Part shown: in pieces, positions 39,296-46,061 of the stretch
How positions within the stretch are numbered: position 1 is the stretch's first letter
How the letters are laid out: each line of letters opens with the position of its first letter
From: Nocardioides mangrovicus
GTDB lineage: Bacteria > Actinomycetota > Actinomycetes > Propionibacteriales > Nocardioidaceae
Length of the DNA: 64,000 nt
Reading direction: 5' to 3'
NCBI RefSeq assembly: GCF_003674065.1
Contig: NZ_RDBE01000006.1
Coordinates: 597,613-661,612 of the forward strand
Notes under the pieces: model-generated
Database searches by the model: none
Told to the model about the DNA's origin: nothing
Seen by the model: the letters and a program-made list of their open reading frames with translations, nothing else
Made by a program: the position numbers and the translations under genes

Positions 39296-39321
39296 TCGCC
39301 CGCGAAACCACCGGTTTCGCG
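39247..39321. repeat. Clustered GGTTTC/GAAACC inverted repeats
   Basis: First hairpin: GCCCGGTTTC (39247-39256) with its exact complement at 39271-39280, inside the end of the phosphatase gene. Second hairpin: CGCGAAACC (39301-39309), three bases, complement to 39321, in the intergenic gap. The shared GAAACC core suggests one repeat family. The second hairpin may act as a terminator between the convergent genes. Confidence 0.65.
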
Positions 39322-39344
39322 CGCCCGTCGTCCGTTTCGTCCGG

Positions 39345-41885
39345 CTAGACGCCCAGCGCGACGAAGGCCGCGGCTGTCGCCTGACTCACCGCGTCGCCGG
39401 CACCGGCCCGCCGCGCGTGGTGCATCGCCTCGGCCAGGCCCGAGCCCGCGGCCAGGGCGGCGTGCAGGTCGAGCATCAGCTGCACGGTGGCCTCGTCGTT
39501 CACCTCGGCGACGCTGGCCACCACACCGGCCGTGCCGAGCGAGAGCAGGGCGGCGGTGAGGCCGAGCAGCTCGTCGGCGCCCACCGGGGCCATGACGCCG
39601 GAGTCGCAGGCCGAGAGCACCAGCCGGTGCGGCGGGCGGCGCAGGAGCTCGAGGTCGTGCACGGTGAGCGGGCCGTCGTCGAGGCGGAGCGAGGAGAACA
39701 TCGGGCTGTCGGGGCGGAAGTCGCCGTGCGCGGCCACGTGCGCGAGTCGCGAGCCGTCCAGGGCCGCGAGGGTCGCCTCGACCGTGGCGGTGCCGTCGCG
39801 CAGCACCGTGGTGGCGCCGGGAGCCAGGACGTCCACCTCCGCGCCGCCCGTGCCCAGGCCGGGACCCGCCACCAGCACCGTCCGCTCACCCGAGGGCCGG
39901 CGGGCGGCACGGGCGCGCAGCCACATCGTCGCGCTTGGCACCACGGACACCGGGCGGTCGGCCAGCCCCGGCAGCAGCGTCCACGGCACGGCGTGCAGCC
40001 TGCTGGGCGGTGCGACCACCACCGGCCCGTCGCCCAGCCGGACGCCGGCCAGCAGCGTCTGCTGCAGCCGCTCGGCCGCGGCGGCGATCGTCGCCGGCCT
40101 ACCCCGCGCTGCTTGGCGAAGTGCGAACCGCGCCTGGGCCACCGCCTGCGCCGCGGCCTCCACCGGACCTCCGACGCTGTGCCGCACTCGGCCGCCGCAA
40201 ACGGTCAGGGCGTGCAGGACGCCGTCGACCTCGACCAGCTCGACGAAGGTCCTCTCTCCCACCGCGTCGACGAAGGCGTCGACGTCGAAGCGCACCGACT
40301 GCCGCCGCGTCCCGGCCAGCAGGTGCCGCTGGTGACGCACCGCCTGCTCCCAGGCCTGCCGGGCCCGGGCCACCGCCTGCGGGTCGCCCTCCCCCTGGGC
40401 CTCCTCGAGCCGACGCGCCTGGCTGCGCAGCGCGGCCAGACGCGAGGCGTCGCGGCCGGACGGGCGCACCGGCGGTTCGGCCAGCGCGGTGGCCCGCCAG
40501 CGCTCGGTCCAGGTCAGCAGCCGGCGCGCACCACCGCGACGGACGGCCTCCCGCAGCGCCAGATCGGCCAGGTCGGTGCCGTGCCGGGTGGCGAGCGCCC
40601 GCAGCTCCGAGCTGCCGAGCGTCTGGCGGTGCTCGTCGAGCGCGTCGAGCCCGCGCCCGCAGGCCGAGAGGATCCCACGCGAGTCGCCCGCCAGCTCGCG
40701 GTCGAGCGCCTGCCCGAGCCAGCCGGTCGCGCGCACCAGCGGCGCCGGCCGACGCCGGTAGCGCGCCGCCGCCGTGAGGAGCCGGTGGGCTTCGTCGGGG
40801 TGTCGCTTCGTGGCGAGCCGGCCGGCCAGCAGGAGTGCCAGCGGGGCGTCGTCCGCCTTCAGGTCGACCAGGCGATCGGCCAGCTCGGCGGCCTGGCCGA
40901 TGAGCCGATCGCCGCCGTCACCGCGGATCTGTCGTGCCTGCAGCACGACCAGATCCGCGCGAGCCTGCCACCAGGAGCGCCGCTGCTGCCTGAACAGCCT
41001 GCTCGCGACGCGAGCGCGCCGCAACGCCAACCCGGGGTCACCATCGACGAGCGCCACGGAGGCCGAGATGAAGTGGAGCTCCGCCTGCCTCGTCGGCAGC
41101 GCAGCGGCCTGCAGCGCCTCGTCGACGACCTGTCCGGCCTCGGCGGCCAGACCGGCCGCGAGCAGGGCCTGGCAGCGGTGGTAGGCCAGCTCGGGTTCGA
41201 CGTGGGAGAGCTCGCTGTATCCGCGTGCCGCCCGGTCGTAGAGAGTCAGCGTGCCGGGGATGTCGCCGCGGTTGTAGGCCACGAGCCCCCGGTTGTGCAC
41301 CAGCATCACCGCCTCGAGGTCCTGCCCGACCCGACGGAACAACGACTCCGCGTCCGTCAGGTCGGCGTCCGCACGTCCCAGTGACCCTCGCGCCACATGC
41401 ACCAACGCACGGTTGGTGAGGGTCCGCGCCTCCCACAGCACGTCGTGGTGGGCGCGGCAGCCGGCCAGCGCGCGGCTCAGGTCCTTCAACGCCTCGGCAT
41501 GGCGCCCCAGCGCGGACAGTACGTACGCCCGACGCATGACGATGCGCGCGAGCACGATCCCGTTCGCCATGTCCACCGCGGAATCCAGCTCCCGCAGGCC
41601 CGCCCGGGTACGACCGCCCACGACGAGGGTGGCGCCCAGGGTGGCCCGGACGTCGGCGACCCGGTCGGGCTGGTTCGCCGCACTCGCCGAACTGAGTGCC
41701 GCACGCAGCTCCGGCACGGCCTCGGACCACCGCCCGGCGTCACGCAGGACGATGCCGGCCGCTTGGTACGCATACGAGCGCACGGCCGGATCGGTCGAGG
41801 AGGCGGTCAGCCGTCGTGCTCGTCGCAGCGCGTCCACGGGGCGCGACAACGCCAGCGCCAAGAGCGCATCCGGCTGGGTCGACAC
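39345..41885 (-). CDS. TPR-CHAT domain protein (caspase-like protease)
   Basis: An 846-residue protein. Residues about 1-430 form helical tetratricopeptide-like repeats, with pairs such as SYAYQAAGIVLRDAGRWSEAVPELR and HNRGLVAYNRGDIPGTLTLYDRA. A linker follows. The C-terminal CHAT domain (about 540-846) keeps both catalytic residues: His720 in HVAAHGDF and Cys760 in LSACDSG. CHAT is the bacterial caspase/separase-like protease clan; the TPR part usually senses partners. No signal peptide or membrane helix. GTG 41885 has no ribosome binding site but a -10-like TAGCGT six bases upstream. Diverges from a subtilisin-like protease. Confidence 0.92.
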   Translation of the reverse strand: MSTQPDALLALALSRPVDALRRARRLTASSTDPAVRSYAYQAAGIVLRDAGRWSEAVPELRAALSSASAANQPDRVADVRATLGATLVVGGRTRAGLRELDSAVDMANGIVLARIVMRRAYVLSALGRHAEALKDLSRALAGCRAHHDVLWEARTLTNRALVHVARGSLGRADADLTDAESLFRRVGQDLEAVMLVHNRGLVAYNRGDIPGTLTLYDRAARGYSELSHVEPELAYHRCQALLAAGLAAEAGQVVDEALQAAALPTRQAELHFISASVALVDGDPGLALRRARVASRLFRQQRRSWWQARADLVVLQARQIRGDGGDRLIGQAAELADRLVDLKADDAPLALLLAGRLATKRHPDEAHRLLTAAARYRRRPAPLVRATGWLGQALDRELAGDSRGILSACGRGLDALDEHRQTLGSSELRALATRHGTDLADLALREAVRRGGARRLLTWTERWRATALAEPPVRPSGRDASRLAALRSQARRLEEAQGEGDPQAVARARQAWEQAVRHQRHLLAGTRRQSVRFDVDAFVDAVGERTFVELVEVDGVLHALTVCGGRVRHSVGGPVEAAAQAVAQARFALRQAARGRPATIAAAAERLQQTLLAGVRLGDGPVVVAPPSRLHAVPWTLLPGLADRPVSVVPSATMWLRARAARRPSGERTVLVAGPGLGTGGAEVDVLAPGATTVLRDGTATVEATLAALDGSRLAHVAAHGDFRPDSPMFSSLRLDDGPLTVHDLELLRRPPHRLVLSACDSGVMAPVGADELLGLTAALLSLGTAGVVASVAEVNDEATVQLMLDLHAALAAGSGLAEAMHHARRAGAGDAVSQATAAAFVALGV

Positions 41886-41891
41886 ATCGAT

Positions 41892-41897
41892 ACGCTA
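41892..41897 (-). promoter_or_regulatory. -10 box of a probable leaderless promoter
   Basis: TAGCGT on the minus strand ends six bases before GTG 41885 of the TPR-CHAT gene. The whole divergent region is only 57 bases. Confidence 0.45.
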
Positions 41898-41942
41898 CCG
41901 ACGTCGCGCGGGGGCCGATCACTTCGTGAAGGGGACGTACGG

Positions 41943-43160
41943 ATGGCAGCACGTGAAGGGCGTGGGAAGCGGGGCCAGACGGCCGAGCGCGAGCGCGCAC
42001 GCACTCAGGTGGGGATCATTCGCCGCGCCTTCGGCGACGAGGTCGAGGCACATCGTGGCGACAGCGAGGACGACGCGGACTTCGAGTACCTCTACCGCAC
42101 CGCGCACATCTTGGTGCGCGACGCCGACGTGGCACGGGTCCGCGAGGTGATCGAGGGCGCCGAGGTGTCCGACAGCCTGGTCAACGGCGTCACCCGGCTC
42201 TCACTCCCGGACGATCTCGATGTGGCAGCAGCGCTCGACCGGCTCGATGTCGCGCTCGGCGTGGGAGCGGCCACACCCGATCACGTGCTCTGGGTCGTAC
42301 CGGGAGGCTGCTGCCCCGCCACCGAGCCCGAGGAGACGAAGGCCGCCGACGCCTGGCCCGAGCCGAACCACCGCGAGCTGGACGGCAAGGGCGTGCTGGT
42401 CTCGGTCGTCGACACCGGCTGGCACACGCCGTCGGCCACCGACCCGAGGTCGCCGTGGCTCGCGGGCGTCAGGGGCGATGAGGAGACGATCGACCCGAAC
42501 GCCATCCATCCCTACGCCGGGCACGGCACGTTCATCGCCGGCGTGGTGCGCTGCGAGGCGCCGGCCAGCGACATCTACGTCGAGGGCTACCTGACCCACG
42601 GCGGCGCGATCTTCGAGTCCGAGATGATCAAGCAGCTGGTCGAGGCACTGGCCAAGGGCCCCGACGTCATCAGCTTCTCCGGCGGCACCGTCACCCGCGG
42701 CAACCGCCCGTCGCTGGCGTTCGAGGTGTTCTACGAGAACTTCCTGAGCAAGCTCAAGGGCACGGTGCTGGTCGCCGCCGCCGGCAACGACGACACCCGC
42801 GAGCCGTTCTGGCCCGCCGCGTTCCCGTGGTCGGTCTCGGTCGGCGCGATCGACCGGCACGGCAACAAGGCGGAGTTCTCCAACTACGGCAGCTGGGTGG
42901 ATGTCTACGCCCTCGGCGTCGACGTCGTGAACGCCTTCCCCCACGGCACCTACACGTGCACCGAACCGCCGCACGTCGGCGAGGTGCGCCATTTCGACGG
43001 GCTGTGCCGGTGGAGCGGTACGTCGTTCTCGACGCCGGTCGTCGCGGGCAAGATCGCCGCGCGCATGAGTCGCACCGGGCTCAGCGCCCGGGCCGCGGCC
43101 GACGAGCTGCTGGTGGAGGCGCGCAACAACGCGATCGTGGGCGTCGGCGCGATCCTGTAG
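41943..43160 (+). CDS. S8 (subtilisin-like) serine peptidase, cytosolic
   Basis: A 405-residue subtilase. The catalytic triad is complete: Asp157 (VSVVDTGW), His194 (AGHGTFIAG), Ser361 (WSGTSFSTPVVAG), with oxyanion Asn282 (VAAAGN). About 140 N-terminal residues form a mixed domain (TAHILVRDADVARVREVIEG) that may act as inhibitory or recognition region. No signal peptide, unlike most subtilases, so it probably cleaves an intracellular target. ATG 41943 has GAAGGGG eight bases upstream. It faces the TPR-CHAT gene and converges, five bases apart, with the gene of the sigma-linked small protein. Confidence 0.93.
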   Translation: MAAREGRGKRGQTAERERARTQVGIIRRAFGDEVEAHRGDSEDDADFEYLYRTAHILVRDADVARVREVIEGAEVSDSLVNGVTRLSLPDDLDVAAALDRLDVALGVGAATPDHVLWVVPGGCCPATEPEETKAADAWPEPNHRELDGKGVLVSVVDTGWHTPSATDPRSPWLAGVRGDEETIDPNAIHPYAGHGTFIAGVVRCEAPASDIYVEGYLTHGGAIFESEMIKQLVEALAKGPDVISFSGGTVTRGNRPSLAFEVFYENFLSKLKGTVLVAAAGNDDTREPFWPAAFPWSVSVGAIDRHGNKAEFSNYGSWVDVYALGVDVVNAFPHGTYTCTEPPHVGEVRHFDGLCRWSGTSFSTPVVAGKIAARMSRTGLSARAAADELLVEARNNAIVGVGAIL

Positions 43161-43164
43161 CCGC

Positions 43165-43599
43165 CTAGAAGCTGACCCAGCTGGTACTGAGCCGGTCCTC
43201 GCCGACCTCGACGACGAACCGCACCGCGCCGGTGAGCGTGAACGGAAGCGAGAAGAACCCGGAGTCGTCGACCTCGATCACGAACGGCTCGGCGTCGCGG
43301 CCGACGGCCGTGAGCCGGCACCGGCCGGTGGGGATGACCTGCCCGGTGAGCACGCCGTCGTCGAGCTCGACCTCCAGGCCGAGGTCGCGGGCCTGGAAGC
43401 CGAAGGCTCGTACCGTCTCTGCGCCGCGCACCCGCAGCTCGCCGGTGGCGGCCGAGTCGTGCACCAGGTCCATCAGCTCCTCGTCGATCGTGCGCCAGGT
43501 GAAGGCGGCACGGGCGGCCTCGCGGGCGCGGTCGGTGACGAGCGCCCCGTCGGCCACGGCCTCGCGCAGCTCGGCGATCAGGGCGTCGTCGTCACTCAT
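43165..43599 (-). CDS. Small beta-rich protein encoded with the sigma factor
   Basis: A 144-residue protein of unknown function. The N-terminal third is helical (LIAELREAVADGALVTDRAREAA, then FTWRTIDEELMDLVHDS). The rest is beta-rich (LTGQVIPTGRCRLTAVG, PFVIEVDDSGFFSLPFTL, AVRFVVEVGED) and looks like a small immunoglobulin/transthyretin-like domain. No membrane segment or metal-binding HxxxCxxC, so it is not a classical zinc anti-sigma factor. ATG 43599 overlaps the sigma factor stop by four bases, with GAGGAG upstream. The tight coupling makes it a candidate partner or inhibitor of the sigma factor and a possible protease substrate; that is an inference. Confidence 0.8.
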   Translation of the reverse strand: MSDDDALIAELREAVADGALVTDRAREAARAAFTWRTIDEELMDLVHDSAATGELRVRGAETVRAFGFQARDLGLEVELDDGVLTGQVIPTGRCRLTAVGRDAEPFVIEVDDSGFFSLPFTLTGAVRFVVEVGEDRLSTSWVSF

Positions 43600-44168
43600 C
43601 GGGTCTCCTCGGTCGTCTCGGCGAGCGCGACGAGCGCTGCCGCGTTGCGCAGCTGCTCCAGGGCACGGGCGCGAGTCGGCCCGATGGTGCCGATCGGGAT
43701 GCCGAGCAGCGCACTGACCTCGGCGTACGCGCGGGGTGGGTCCTCGATCAGCAGCAGGAGCAGCCGGCGCCGGTCCTCGGGCAGCTGGTCCAGCGCCTCG
43801 CGCAGCGCCCGGCCCCGCTCGGCGCGCAGCAGCTCGGCGTCGACGTCGGGACCGTCGGCGACGACCTCGGGACCGCTGGACAGGTCGACCGGGACGGCCC
43901 GCCGGTCGCTGTGCCGCACCCGGACCGACTCGCGCCGTGCGGTGGTGGCGAGCCAGCCGGGCAGGGCCGCCGGCTCACGCACGCCGTCGAGGTGCTCGAC
44001 CAGCCGCAACCACACGGTCTGGTTGACGTCGTCGGCCTCGGCACCGCGGAGGCCGACGCGGGCGATGGTGCCGCAGACCAGCGGCAAGAAGCGCTCGACC
44101 AGTGCGTCCCACGCGCTCTCGTCGCCGGCGCGCGCCGCCAGCACCAGCTCTCGGAGACCTCGCTCCAT
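43596..44168 (-). CDS. ECF-type RNA polymerase sigma factor
   Basis: A 190-residue sigma-70 family protein. Region 2 (about residues 15-80) contains LVERFLPLVCGTIARVG, EADDVNQTVWLRLVEHLDG and LPGWLATTARRESVRVRH. Region 4 (about 125-180) has LDQLPEDRRRLLLLLIED and the helix-turn-helix AYAEVSALLGIPIGTIGPTRARALEQLR. There is no region 3, as in ECF factors. ATG 44168 is preceded by GGGAGGGC. It directs polymerase to a small set of promoters, perhaps those of the adjacent protease genes; no recognisable shared promoter could be confirmed. Confidence 0.93.
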   Translation of the reverse strand: MERGLRELVLAARAGDESAWDALVERFLPLVCGTIARVGLRGAEADDVNQTVWLRLVEHLDGVREPAALPGWLATTARRESVRVRHSDRRAVPVDLSSGPEVVADGPDVDAELLRAERGRALREALDQLPEDRRRLLLLLIEDPPRAYAEVSALLGIPIGTIGPTRARALEQLRNAAALVALAETTEETR

Positions 44169-44220
44169 GCCTGCCCTCCCGGTGGACCGGGGCAAGTCCA
44201 CACCGCGGACGGCGCCGGGA

Positions 44221-45306
44221 TCAACCAACCAGAGCATGCACCACTGCCCGACCGTCGCCACGACGCACGACCGCGGCCGTGTGGGAGGCCGCGGGGGCGT
44301 CCAGCAGCCCGTGGCGCAGCGCCACCTTGACCGCGGTGCGCATGGCGGCGACGTCGTGCGCCTGGTGGGCGCGACGGACCACGATCGTGAGCACCAGCGG
44401 GGCCAGCGCGCTGCGCTGGCGCAGCGGCAGGGCCCGGTACGCCGTCGCCCAGCGGGGGCCGTGAACCGGTGCCGGTAGCGCCAGCACCCGCTCGCCGTCG
44501 CGACGGACCGCCCGGCGCAGCCTCGCGGTGGCCAGGAGCGCGTTGAGCACGCCGGTGGAAAAGGCCGCCGCGTGGGCCGGGCCTCCCGTGGCTGGCGGGG
44601 CCTGGGCGTCGACGAGGCCGAGCGCGAAGTCGGCGGGCGCACTCCACGGCAGGTCCAGCAACGGCCAGAGCCACAGCACCTCGGCGACCAGCGCGAGGTC
44701 GTCGGCGTCGAGGGCCAGCGCGAGCGCCGCCTCGGCCTGTGCGACGCGGATCGTGTGGGAGGTCGCGCGGTGCCCGACGTCCGTGGCCATCAGCGCCGCC
44801 CTCGTCAGGGCGTAGAGGTCCTCGGTGGTCGTGGCGAGGGCGTCAACCGGGCGTCCCAGGGGGCTGCGGGCGAGCACCTCCTGGTCGTCGAGACCGGAGT
44901 GGTCACCGGTCCACACCGCGTGGACCCAGGCCTGCGCGAGCTCGAGGCCGCCCGCGACGTGCATGGGCCCGGCGACGGCCTCGTGCAGCCAGCCCAGCGC
45001 CACGGTGCGCGACGTCGTGCCGTCCCCCAGCGACGGCACGACGTCGGCACCGAGCGCCGCCCCCGCGACCTCGACCAGCCGAGCCCGGGCGCCCCCGACG
45101 CCCGGGTCGGCGGCCCATCCCCCGGTGGCGCGCAGCAGGAGTGCGGCCTCCCCCGTCACCGGACCCACCCCAGGCGGCGGGACGATCCCCCGCGATGGCC
45201 GTCCCACCACCTGGGTCACCGCATCGGCGAGCTCGCCGAGCGCACGGACGACCTGCTGCTTCCGCCCCGTCTGCAGCGCTGCCGTCCTGACCCTCGTCTC
45301 CGCCAC
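44221..45306 (-). CDS. Helical protein of unknown function near the sigma/protease locus
   Basis: A 361-residue, almost entirely helical protein with no signal peptide. The central part (TTEDLYALTRAALMATDVGHR, then QAEAALALALDADDLALVAEVLWLWPLLDLPW) reminds me of the DUF6895-type proteins of streptomycetes, but I cannot confirm this. GTG 45306 has GGAGGG seven bases upstream. It is 52 bases upstream of the sigma factor gene on the same strand and may form one transcript with it. Function not assigned. Confidence 0.7.
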   Translation of the reverse strand: MAETRVRTAALQTGRKQQVVRALGELADAVTQVVGRPSRGIVPPPGVGPVTGEAALLLRATGGWAADPGVGGARARLVEVAGAALGADVVPSLGDGTTSRTVALGWLHEAVAGPMHVAGGLELAQAWVHAVWTGDHSGLDDQEVLARSPLGRPVDALATTTEDLYALTRAALMATDVGHRATSHTIRVAQAEAALALALDADDLALVAEVLWLWPLLDLPWSAPADFALGLVDAQAPPATGGPAHAAAFSTGVLNALLATARLRRAVRRDGERVLALPAPVHGPRWATAYRALPLRQRSALAPLVLTIVVRRAHQAHDVAAMRTAVKVALRHGLLDAPAASHTAAVVRRGDGRAVVHALVG

Positions 45307-45408
45307 CGCTGCGCCCTCCCTGACCGGTCGACCGTCACCTGCTGTGGGTGACACTGGAGAGGAGTACGGGGTGGTGGCGGTGATACGTCCGGGGCGATTT
45401 TTCTTGGC

Positions 45409-45440
45409 GGGGGTTTTGCCGGGCACCCGGCAAAACCCCC
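45409..45440. repeat. Near-perfect hairpin with 15-bp stem
   Basis: GGGGGTTTTGCCGGG pairs exactly with its complement across a 2-base CA (effective loop four bases). It lies 61 bases after the GNAT stop and about 100 bases before the start of the 361-residue protein gene. No T-run follows on the leftward transcript, so it is a terminator without U-tract or a dispersed repeat. A CCGAATTCGG palindrome follows at 45441-45450. Confidence 0.65.
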
Positions 45441-45500
45441 CCGAATTCGGCTCCAGAACCGGTCGCCGACACGAGTTTCGGTAGCACAGCGCCCGTTTGG

Positions 45501-46061
45501 TCAGGTTCGGACCGCGACCCCGTGCAGGCACACGTCGTGACGTCGAACGCCGCCGACGGCGTGCTCGTCGCGCAACGGCAGGAACCCGCGCCGCACTCCC
45601 TCGCGCTCCAGGCCGGCGGCCAGCGCCGTCCGGCAGGAGGCGAGGTTCTCGACGCTGTGGTCCAGCTGCACCCGTGCCTGGGCGGGGCCGGGCGGGTCGG
45701 TGGTCAGCCAGGCCACCATCAGGCCGATCGCGGCCGTGGCCACGCCGCGGTGCCGGGAGTCGGGGTGCACCGAGTAGCCGATGTCGGCGATTCGCAGCGG
45801 CGGCGGCACGTCGTGACGCCAGGCGATGTCGCCGAGCAGCCGGTCGTTCTCGTCGACGATCGCGAGCGTGCCCGGCGCCAGCTCGGCGTACGCCGCCTGG
45901 GAGGCGACGACCTGCTCGAGGAGGTCGTCGGGCGAGGCCGGTGGCCTCACGAACGCCGGTGCGCCGAAGGCGATCTGGGCCGGGTCGGTGCGCACCTCGA
46001 ACCAGCGCTGCCGATCGGCGTCGCACAGCGGACGGAGAGTTCGCGCGAGACCTCTGCTCAC
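45501..46061 (-). CDS. GNAT family N-acetyltransferase
   Basis: A 186-residue acyl-CoA-dependent acetyltransferase of the RimJ/RimL-like type. DIAWRHDVPPPLRIADIGYSV leads to the acyl-CoA-binding loop HPDSRHRGVATAAIGLMVAWL, and DHSVENLASCRTALAAGLEREG is the usual motif before the last strand. GTG 46061 overlaps the sdhB stop by four bases, so it is co-translated with the complex II operon. Substrate unknown. Confidence 0.88.
   Translation of the reverse strand: MSRGLARTLRPLCDADRQRWFEVRTDPAQIAFGAPAFVRPPASPDDLLEQVVASQAAYAELAPGTLAIVDENDRLLGDIAWRHDVPPPLRIADIGYSVHPDSRHRGVATAAIGLMVAWLTTDPPGPAQARVQLDHSVENLASCRTALAAGLEREGVRRGFLPLRDEHAVGGVRRHDVCLHGVAVRT

Follow-up and report, generated by a model that had tools for sequence, protein, structure and literature searches.

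The question raised by this locus is whether four neighboring genes, encoding two proteases, an ECF-type σ factor and a small protein, constitute one regulatory module, and whether proteolysis within it could control the σ factor. The genes lie in a stretch of 64,000 nucleotides from Nocardioides mangrovicus (assembly GCF_003674065.1, contig NZ_RDBE01000006.1, positions 597,613 to 661,612; the whole stretch is called the window below). A first-pass annotation, made from the letters of the window, had described them as one compact locus, and upon re-checking all four were found where it had placed them and with the features it had given:

39345..41885, − strand: TPR-CHAT protease (846 aa, catalytic His720/Cys760)
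41943..43160, + strand: S8 subtilase (405 aa, no export signal, triad Asp157/His194/Ser361)
43165..43599, − strand: small protein (144 aa, candidate σ inhibitor or adaptor)
43596..44168, − strand: ECF-type σ factor (190 aa, regions 2 and 4)

The start codons of the CHAT and S8 genes are divergent and separated by the 57 bp noted before (41886-41942), and the overlap of the σ and small genes, likewise noted, is 4 bp. Our analysis indicates that the four genes almost certainly form a real module. This arrangement has already been described in print for σ factor group ECF54: section 3.3 of a 2022 review gives ECF54 the same neighbor families, namely conserved carboxypeptidase, subtilase and CHAT neighbors, together with a proposal of proteolytic control without an anti-σ factor (PMC8999054). 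In the literature drawn on here, a description of this gene context was found in that review only; the review cites Huang 2015 and Casas-Pastor 2021 for the group, and its table gives a Geodermatophilus σ factor as the ECF54 model (PMC8999054). The window has a CHAT protease and a subtilase near the σ gene, and also, if the "carboxypeptidase" is taken as CarboxypepD_reg, a small protein some of whose orthologues match that domain.

With the small protein as the first probe against 118 relatives in 35 genera, matches were obtained in 20 relatives and 7 genera, and in none of the 20 other same-genus genomes listed. A 21-row profile of the small protein detected it in 105 of 393 genomes of the class (52 of 137 genera), where CHAT matches were present in 131 genomes (E 1e-20) and σ matches in 176 (E 1e-15) or 124 (E 1e-30). 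Absences in these class scans are soft, scoring having been limited to the top few candidates of each genome. CHAT occurred in 101 of the 105 genomes positive for the small protein versus 30 of the 288 negative ones, counts in which lineages are not independent. We then compared 104 loci, comprising the window and 103 regions fetched around, and hence selected by, matches to the small protein (23 from the relatives and 80 of the 120 class-scan matches, these being the best 83 minus our own genome, one duplicate and one match at a contig edge). The four families were found to co-occur and co-localize strongly, so that the refuting condition named in the first-pass annotation, a lack of conserved co-occurrence, does not hold: 71 of the 104 loci contain all four genes, in nine gene orders. 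Another 21 have σ and small genes only, 5 lack only S8, 4 hold other partial sets and 3 are weak small-protein matches without any module gene; several of the partial loci are short contigs. The σ>small order and strand are fixed in all 98 loci that contain both, and no σ-small fusion was found in the 104 loci. Where a CHAT region lies away from the σ-small pair, S8 adjoins CHAT in 16 of 17 cases, the remaining region being cut off by the end of its contig. Broken contigs may account for some of these splits, but G245, G285, G235 and G174 each carry the two halves megabases apart on a single contig. Within genus g28, 31 of 38 genomes have a strong small-protein match, and the other seven all lack CHAT, which was detected in both positive controls.

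The coevolutionary signal fits the same division into a σ half and a protease half. In tetrads of distance matrices from the 71 complete loci, the σ-small and CHAT-S8 pairs are the extra-correlated ones (0.352 versus 0.177 and 0.191), this tetrad being the largest in 300 of 300 bootstraps; the order of action lies outside the reach of the tetrads. A strict CHAT>S8>small>σ order, derived from partial correlations, failed the tetrad check and was dropped.

Both proteases appear catalytically intact. The CHAT protein matches Pfam CHAT with E 2.4e-25 (TPR matches are sub-threshold), and His720 and Cys760 are invariant in 21 of 21 aligned orthologues, in agreement with the intact His/Cys dyad claimed before. 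In a wider set, His and Cys are kept in 63 of the 63 rows covering those columns, 14 of the 77 rows being gapped there because they are fragments (the best-scoring stretch alone was taken, and some contigs end). A cruder word pattern applied to the CHAT frames returned the His motif in 70 and the Cys motif in 52 of 77, and we trust the alignment-based counts more. The window protein, having a CHAT domain with both residues, is thus a CHAT cysteine peptidase by this definition; a CHAT scan of genome contigs returned a single remote match only. In the S8 domain (Pfam S8, E 1.1e-24), Asp157, His194, Asn282 and Ser361 are the same in all 21 orthologues aligned. Over the covered columns of a 75-row set, Asp is kept in 73/73, His in 74/74 and Ser in 55/55, and word patterns on the frames give the Ser motif in 75/75 and the His motif in 66/75. 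No hydrophobic stretch was found in the sequence of the N-terminus, where the structure model places a helix at 9-33, so that the earlier description of a subtilase with an intact triad and without an export signal holds as well.

The structure model of the subtilase (pLDDT 88.5) adds a further element. Residues 49-118 form a beta-alpha-beta-beta-alpha-beta domain ahead of the protease domain, as in subtilisin prodomains, and the top PDB matches of the model are unprocessed pro-subtilisins (best TM 0.58, root-mean-square deviation 6.0, 396 columns). We therefore read the protein as an S8 pro-subtilase, with a triad and an N-terminal prodomain fold, the latter by model. Judging from its family, this subtilase is presumably kept inactive until processing; its pro-enzyme architecture is a feature of the predicted structure. 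Two nearly invariant cysteines, residues 124 and 339, stand out across the S8 family, one of them in the prodomain linker, and a redox or metal link is possible.

The σ protein matches regions 2 and 4 and scores above the cut-off of TIGR02937 (sigma70-ECF). Its overlapping partner, modeled from 77 orthologues (pLDDT 84.2, pTM 0.58), is predicted to consist of helices 3-17 and 23-51, a linker at 52-59 and an all-beta domain at 64-138; confidence is below 50 in the linker and mostly above 90 in the beta domain, and PDB matches are weak, several being Ig-like (best E 0.02). Near-invariant positions cluster in helix 2 (D39, A43, L45, D48), in 58-68 and in the beta domain. Helix 2 is a likely σ contact, and the modeled linker is a plausible cleavage point. 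CarboxypepD_reg, by its name a regulatory domain, matches 5 of the 21 small orthologues at E 0.1 or better, the window protein itself giving no match. The published "carboxypeptidase" neighbor of ECF54 is therefore probably this small protein of helices plus a beta-sandwich, so that one of the three supposed ECF54 enzymes is probably no enzyme. The scan of five window proteins matched no anti-σ family, although the small protein may itself be an anti-σ factor. It is the best candidate for a direct σ partner.

Does the σ factor control its own operon? A two-box word scan of 247 pooled upstream sequences returned GTATC-N16-GCTC as the top dyad, present in 22 sequences versus 12 in one shuffled set and common to S8 and σ upstreams. 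In the form TGTATCA-N15/16-GCTC the motif precedes many σ operons. A matrix trained on 26 of these sites scored above the 99% null in 26 of 96 σ, 20 of 74 S8 and 1 of 77 CHAT upstreams. The motif stands before σ where σ leads, and before S8 where S8 leads an S8>σ>small operon. Two sites in the window score above 13, at 41887 (−, 14.0) and at 45388 (−, 13.5), and the second belongs to a region upstream of the σ gene:

44221..about 45306, − strand: gene with a weak DUF6895 match (start codon assumed)
45362..45387, − strand: promoter-like site CGTATCA-N15-ACTC (motif score 13.5)
45409..45440, strand not assigned: perfect hairpin directly upstream of the promoter-like site

The site at 45388 lies in front of the DUF6895-like gene (E 2.4e-7), behind the strong hairpin, which is perhaps the terminator of the preceding unit. 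This gene, which the first-pass annotation does not mention, shares the strand of σ, stops 52 bp before the σ start and is probably the first gene of an operon with σ and small. As a general member of the module it was rejected: of 24 genus genomes only its own has it, and it was found in none of 216 other loci. The pattern YGTATCAN{14,16}VCTC has a single match in its own genome, at the operon site, and three matches in the reversed-pattern control. Autoregulation of the σ operon is likely.

The motif also recurs at other targets. In 13 genomes of g53, sites precede the S8 operon in 11 and an AAA + LuxR-type regulator gene convergent with CHAT in 10 by position, 9 of which were looked at; the identity of the regulator comes from Pfam runs on two. 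Its start codon lies 34 nt after the start of the site, and the gene is perhaps leaderless. Sites in g53 were also seen before a stretch that holds 3-7 CGGGGGA words and in which the filter used found no gene (six genomes looked at), with a T-run before four; these stretches possibly encode a σ-driven G-rich RNA, and Rfam found nothing in four of the loci. In g28, 24 of 26 UDP-sugar dehydrogenase genes (PF03721) have the motif in front of them (one of the remaining two genes scored -11 and the other was not located by the script), and these 24 sites have two invariant boxes and a drifting spacer. The dehydrogenase belongs to a polysaccharide cluster that also contains a Wzz-like gene (Pfam) and glycosyltransferase-like genes (by reading of translations). 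We rejected control of this cluster by the CHAT-linked σ factor. All 20 clusters scanned have their own σ paralogue (197-207 bits) beside a convergent, weak small-like match (14-27 bits), and neither CHAT nor S8 was found in any of the 20 stretches; moreover, G103, a g28 genome without CHAT, yet keeps the motif, the σ paralogue and the small-like match. The polysaccharide target is therefore assigned at least to the paralogue, and its companion there, in the absence of both proteases, indicates that the small protein goes with σ. Judging from these sequences, the motif is probably read by a wider σ clade. Two g28 genomes also have a protein of 190-196 aa behind the motif; the one tested gave no Pfam match.

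How might the parts work together? Sequence comparison provides the four-gene linkage, the intact active sites, the fixed σ>small pairing and the recurrent motif before σ operons. Building on these, we infer that the small protein inhibits σ and is a protease substrate, that CHAT acts before S8 and that σ reads the motif. In the resulting scheme, the TPR-CHAT protease would be a cytosolic sensor and initiator that activates, or works jointly with, a subtilase produced in pro-enzyme form. Proteolysis would remove the small protein, which otherwise would hold σ inactive, and the freed σ would transcribe its own operon from TGTATCA-N15/16-GCTC promoters, along with a few lineage-specific genes. 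A cytosolic module of the ECF54 kind, the kind being assigned by gene context, in which σ is released from the small protein by proteolysis, has in our estimate an even chance of being correct, and the inhibitor-and-cleavage step by itself seems to us equally balanced between true and false. The most elaborate version, in which a cascade from CHAT to the pro-subtilase destroys a beta-sandwich anti-σ factor as a CRISPR-free counterpart of Craspase, with σ-small and CHAT-S8 as separable halves, is a tentative proposal.

Several observations weigh against proteolytic release from the small protein and the circuit built on it. The small protein has no recognizable anti-σ fold and no PDB match at E below 0.001, and what has been proposed in print for ECF54 is degradation of σ itself (PMC8999054, section 3.3). 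The tetrads do not tell whether the four form a CHAT-S8-small-σ chain or two coupled pairs (t2 over t3 in 33% of bootstraps), and the pairs they favor are mostly neighbors as well, with a shared history. As to the motif, most scanned σ and S8 upstreams are without it, the window σ gene has no site within 220 bp, and the pattern YGTATCAN{14,16}VCTC was relaxed to fit the window site after that site had been seen. Totals of exact sites are close to the reversed control (1 versus 3 in the own genome, 31 versus 26 in g28, 42 versus 40 in g53); since they are barely or not above it, the case for the motif rests on position and recurrence. The 14.0 site spans the CHAT start codon and is the single CHAT upstream above the null, which is probably chance.

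Under the published proposal, the proteases would degrade σ itself and so hold the system in its off state; there would be no anti-σ factor, and the small protein would be an adaptor or scaffold. It was made for ECF54 from gene context, and its tested precedent is ClpXP with AntA, of another group (ECF282), which the 2022 review names as the only σ factor with such proteolytic control to have been tested (PMC8999054). The review counts the "carboxypeptidase" among the proteolytic enzymes, yet the small protein is probably no enzyme, and it pairs with σ even where the proteases are distant or not found, which fits a dedicated σ regulator; we consider degradation of σ unlikely. Alternatively, the direction could be reversed, with σ and small sensing and the two proteases as outputs, for instance of self-digestion or a defense response. 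The 20 of 74 S8 upstreams with the motif, before S8 genes that lead an S8>σ>small operon, are in line with this, as are weak PADLOC matches of S8. But an S8 gene in the σ operon fits feedback too, the only CHAT upstream to score is the one across the window's own CHAT start codon, and neither S8 nor CHAT in the window lies behind the operon site, making proteases as outputs improbable in our view. The phage sensing suggested by the first-pass annotation found little backing. PADLOC matched S8 to a generic subtilase model (E 2e-10) and weakly to IetS models (best 3e-4), CHAT to BovA at E 0.039, and small and σ to nothing, and the places where the motif recurs are the module's operon, one regulator gene, a G-rich stretch and, in a single genus, polysaccharide genes accompanied by their own σ paralogue.

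Descent from type III-E Craspase would account for a CHAT protease together with an ECF-type σ factor and for the weak match of the window CHAT to the Csx29 model (20.8 bits, CHAT part only). This score is far below the model's cut-off of 300, and the small protein has 144 aa versus the 565 residues of Csx30 (PMC10028731). In addition, no CRISPR-like array was found in 30-55 kb of the window (only two-copy repeat families; no dedicated Cas search was made), consistent with the earlier description of the module as CRISPR-free, and the parts of PMC10028731 drawn on here mention no S8 partner for Craspase. Common descent is thus very unlikely, and the Craspase-like logic is better taken as convergence. 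A mere chance neighborhood, finally, is refuted by the conserved linkage and co-occurrence, and we give it practically no weight. Release of σ by cleavage of the small protein, the model of the first-pass annotation, is the reading that we also favor.

Within the genus, the module is part of a larger segment with a patchy distribution:

39296..46057, strand not assigned: block missing in the same-genus genome G006 (flank comparison)
about 45501-46034, − strand: acetyltransferase-like gene (named by reading of the sequence)

In G006, the matches to the block-flanking SpoIIE-phosphatase and SdhB genes are convergent with ends 70 bp apart, and none of the block genes occurs in the 19-kb stretch. 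Four other congeners have the SpoIIE gene with other neighbors and likewise lack the block from the stretch. The block was either gained in the source genome or lost in the congener, and its absence from the other genus genomes listed favors gain. The acetyltransferase-like gene, at the right end of the block, may lie outside the module, as four other congeners have relatives at other places. Flanking genes scanned include those for methylmalonyl-CoA mutase-like, glycosyltransferase, SpoIIE and iron-sulfur (SdhB-like) proteins.

What the analysis offers for ECF54 is a concrete circuit: a partner for σ, a pro-enzyme, a promoter sequence and one genome in which a single site is predicted. Should the cascade be real, caspase-like proteases would direct transcription in ordinary actinobacteria with no need of RNA guides; small and CHAT occur together in 101 of 393 sampled class genomes. 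Compared with published ECF54, the gene-family combination around an actinobacterial ECF-type σ factor and proteolysis as the proposed control are the same; the present module adds the small protein as a fixed σ partner, the pro-enzyme build of S8, the promoter-like motif, split modules and gain or loss within a genus. The subtilase shares the order and fold of prodomain and catalytic domain with pro-subtilisins but lacks a signal peptide and is linked to CHAT and σ. Pairs of the RseA and RsiW type (PMC10028731) similarly combine σ and its partner in one apparently autoregulated operon, with a protease as the suspected trigger; in contrast, no membrane anti-σ gene was recognized beside the window σ gene, all four parts look cytosolic and the small protein has another fold. 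Other caspase-ECF neighborhoods have been mentioned (PMC8195603). In Craspase, the substrate of the TPR-CHAT protease Csx29 is Csx30, which inhibits an ECF-like σ factor (PMC10028731), and the analogy drawn by the first-pass annotation is a reasonable one. Both systems combine a TPR-CHAT protease, a σ factor and a candidate inhibitor that may be a substrate, while the window module differs in that no CRISPR array was found nearby and in having a CHAT protein far below the Csx29 cut-off, an inhibitor candidate of quite another size and an added S8 pro-enzyme.

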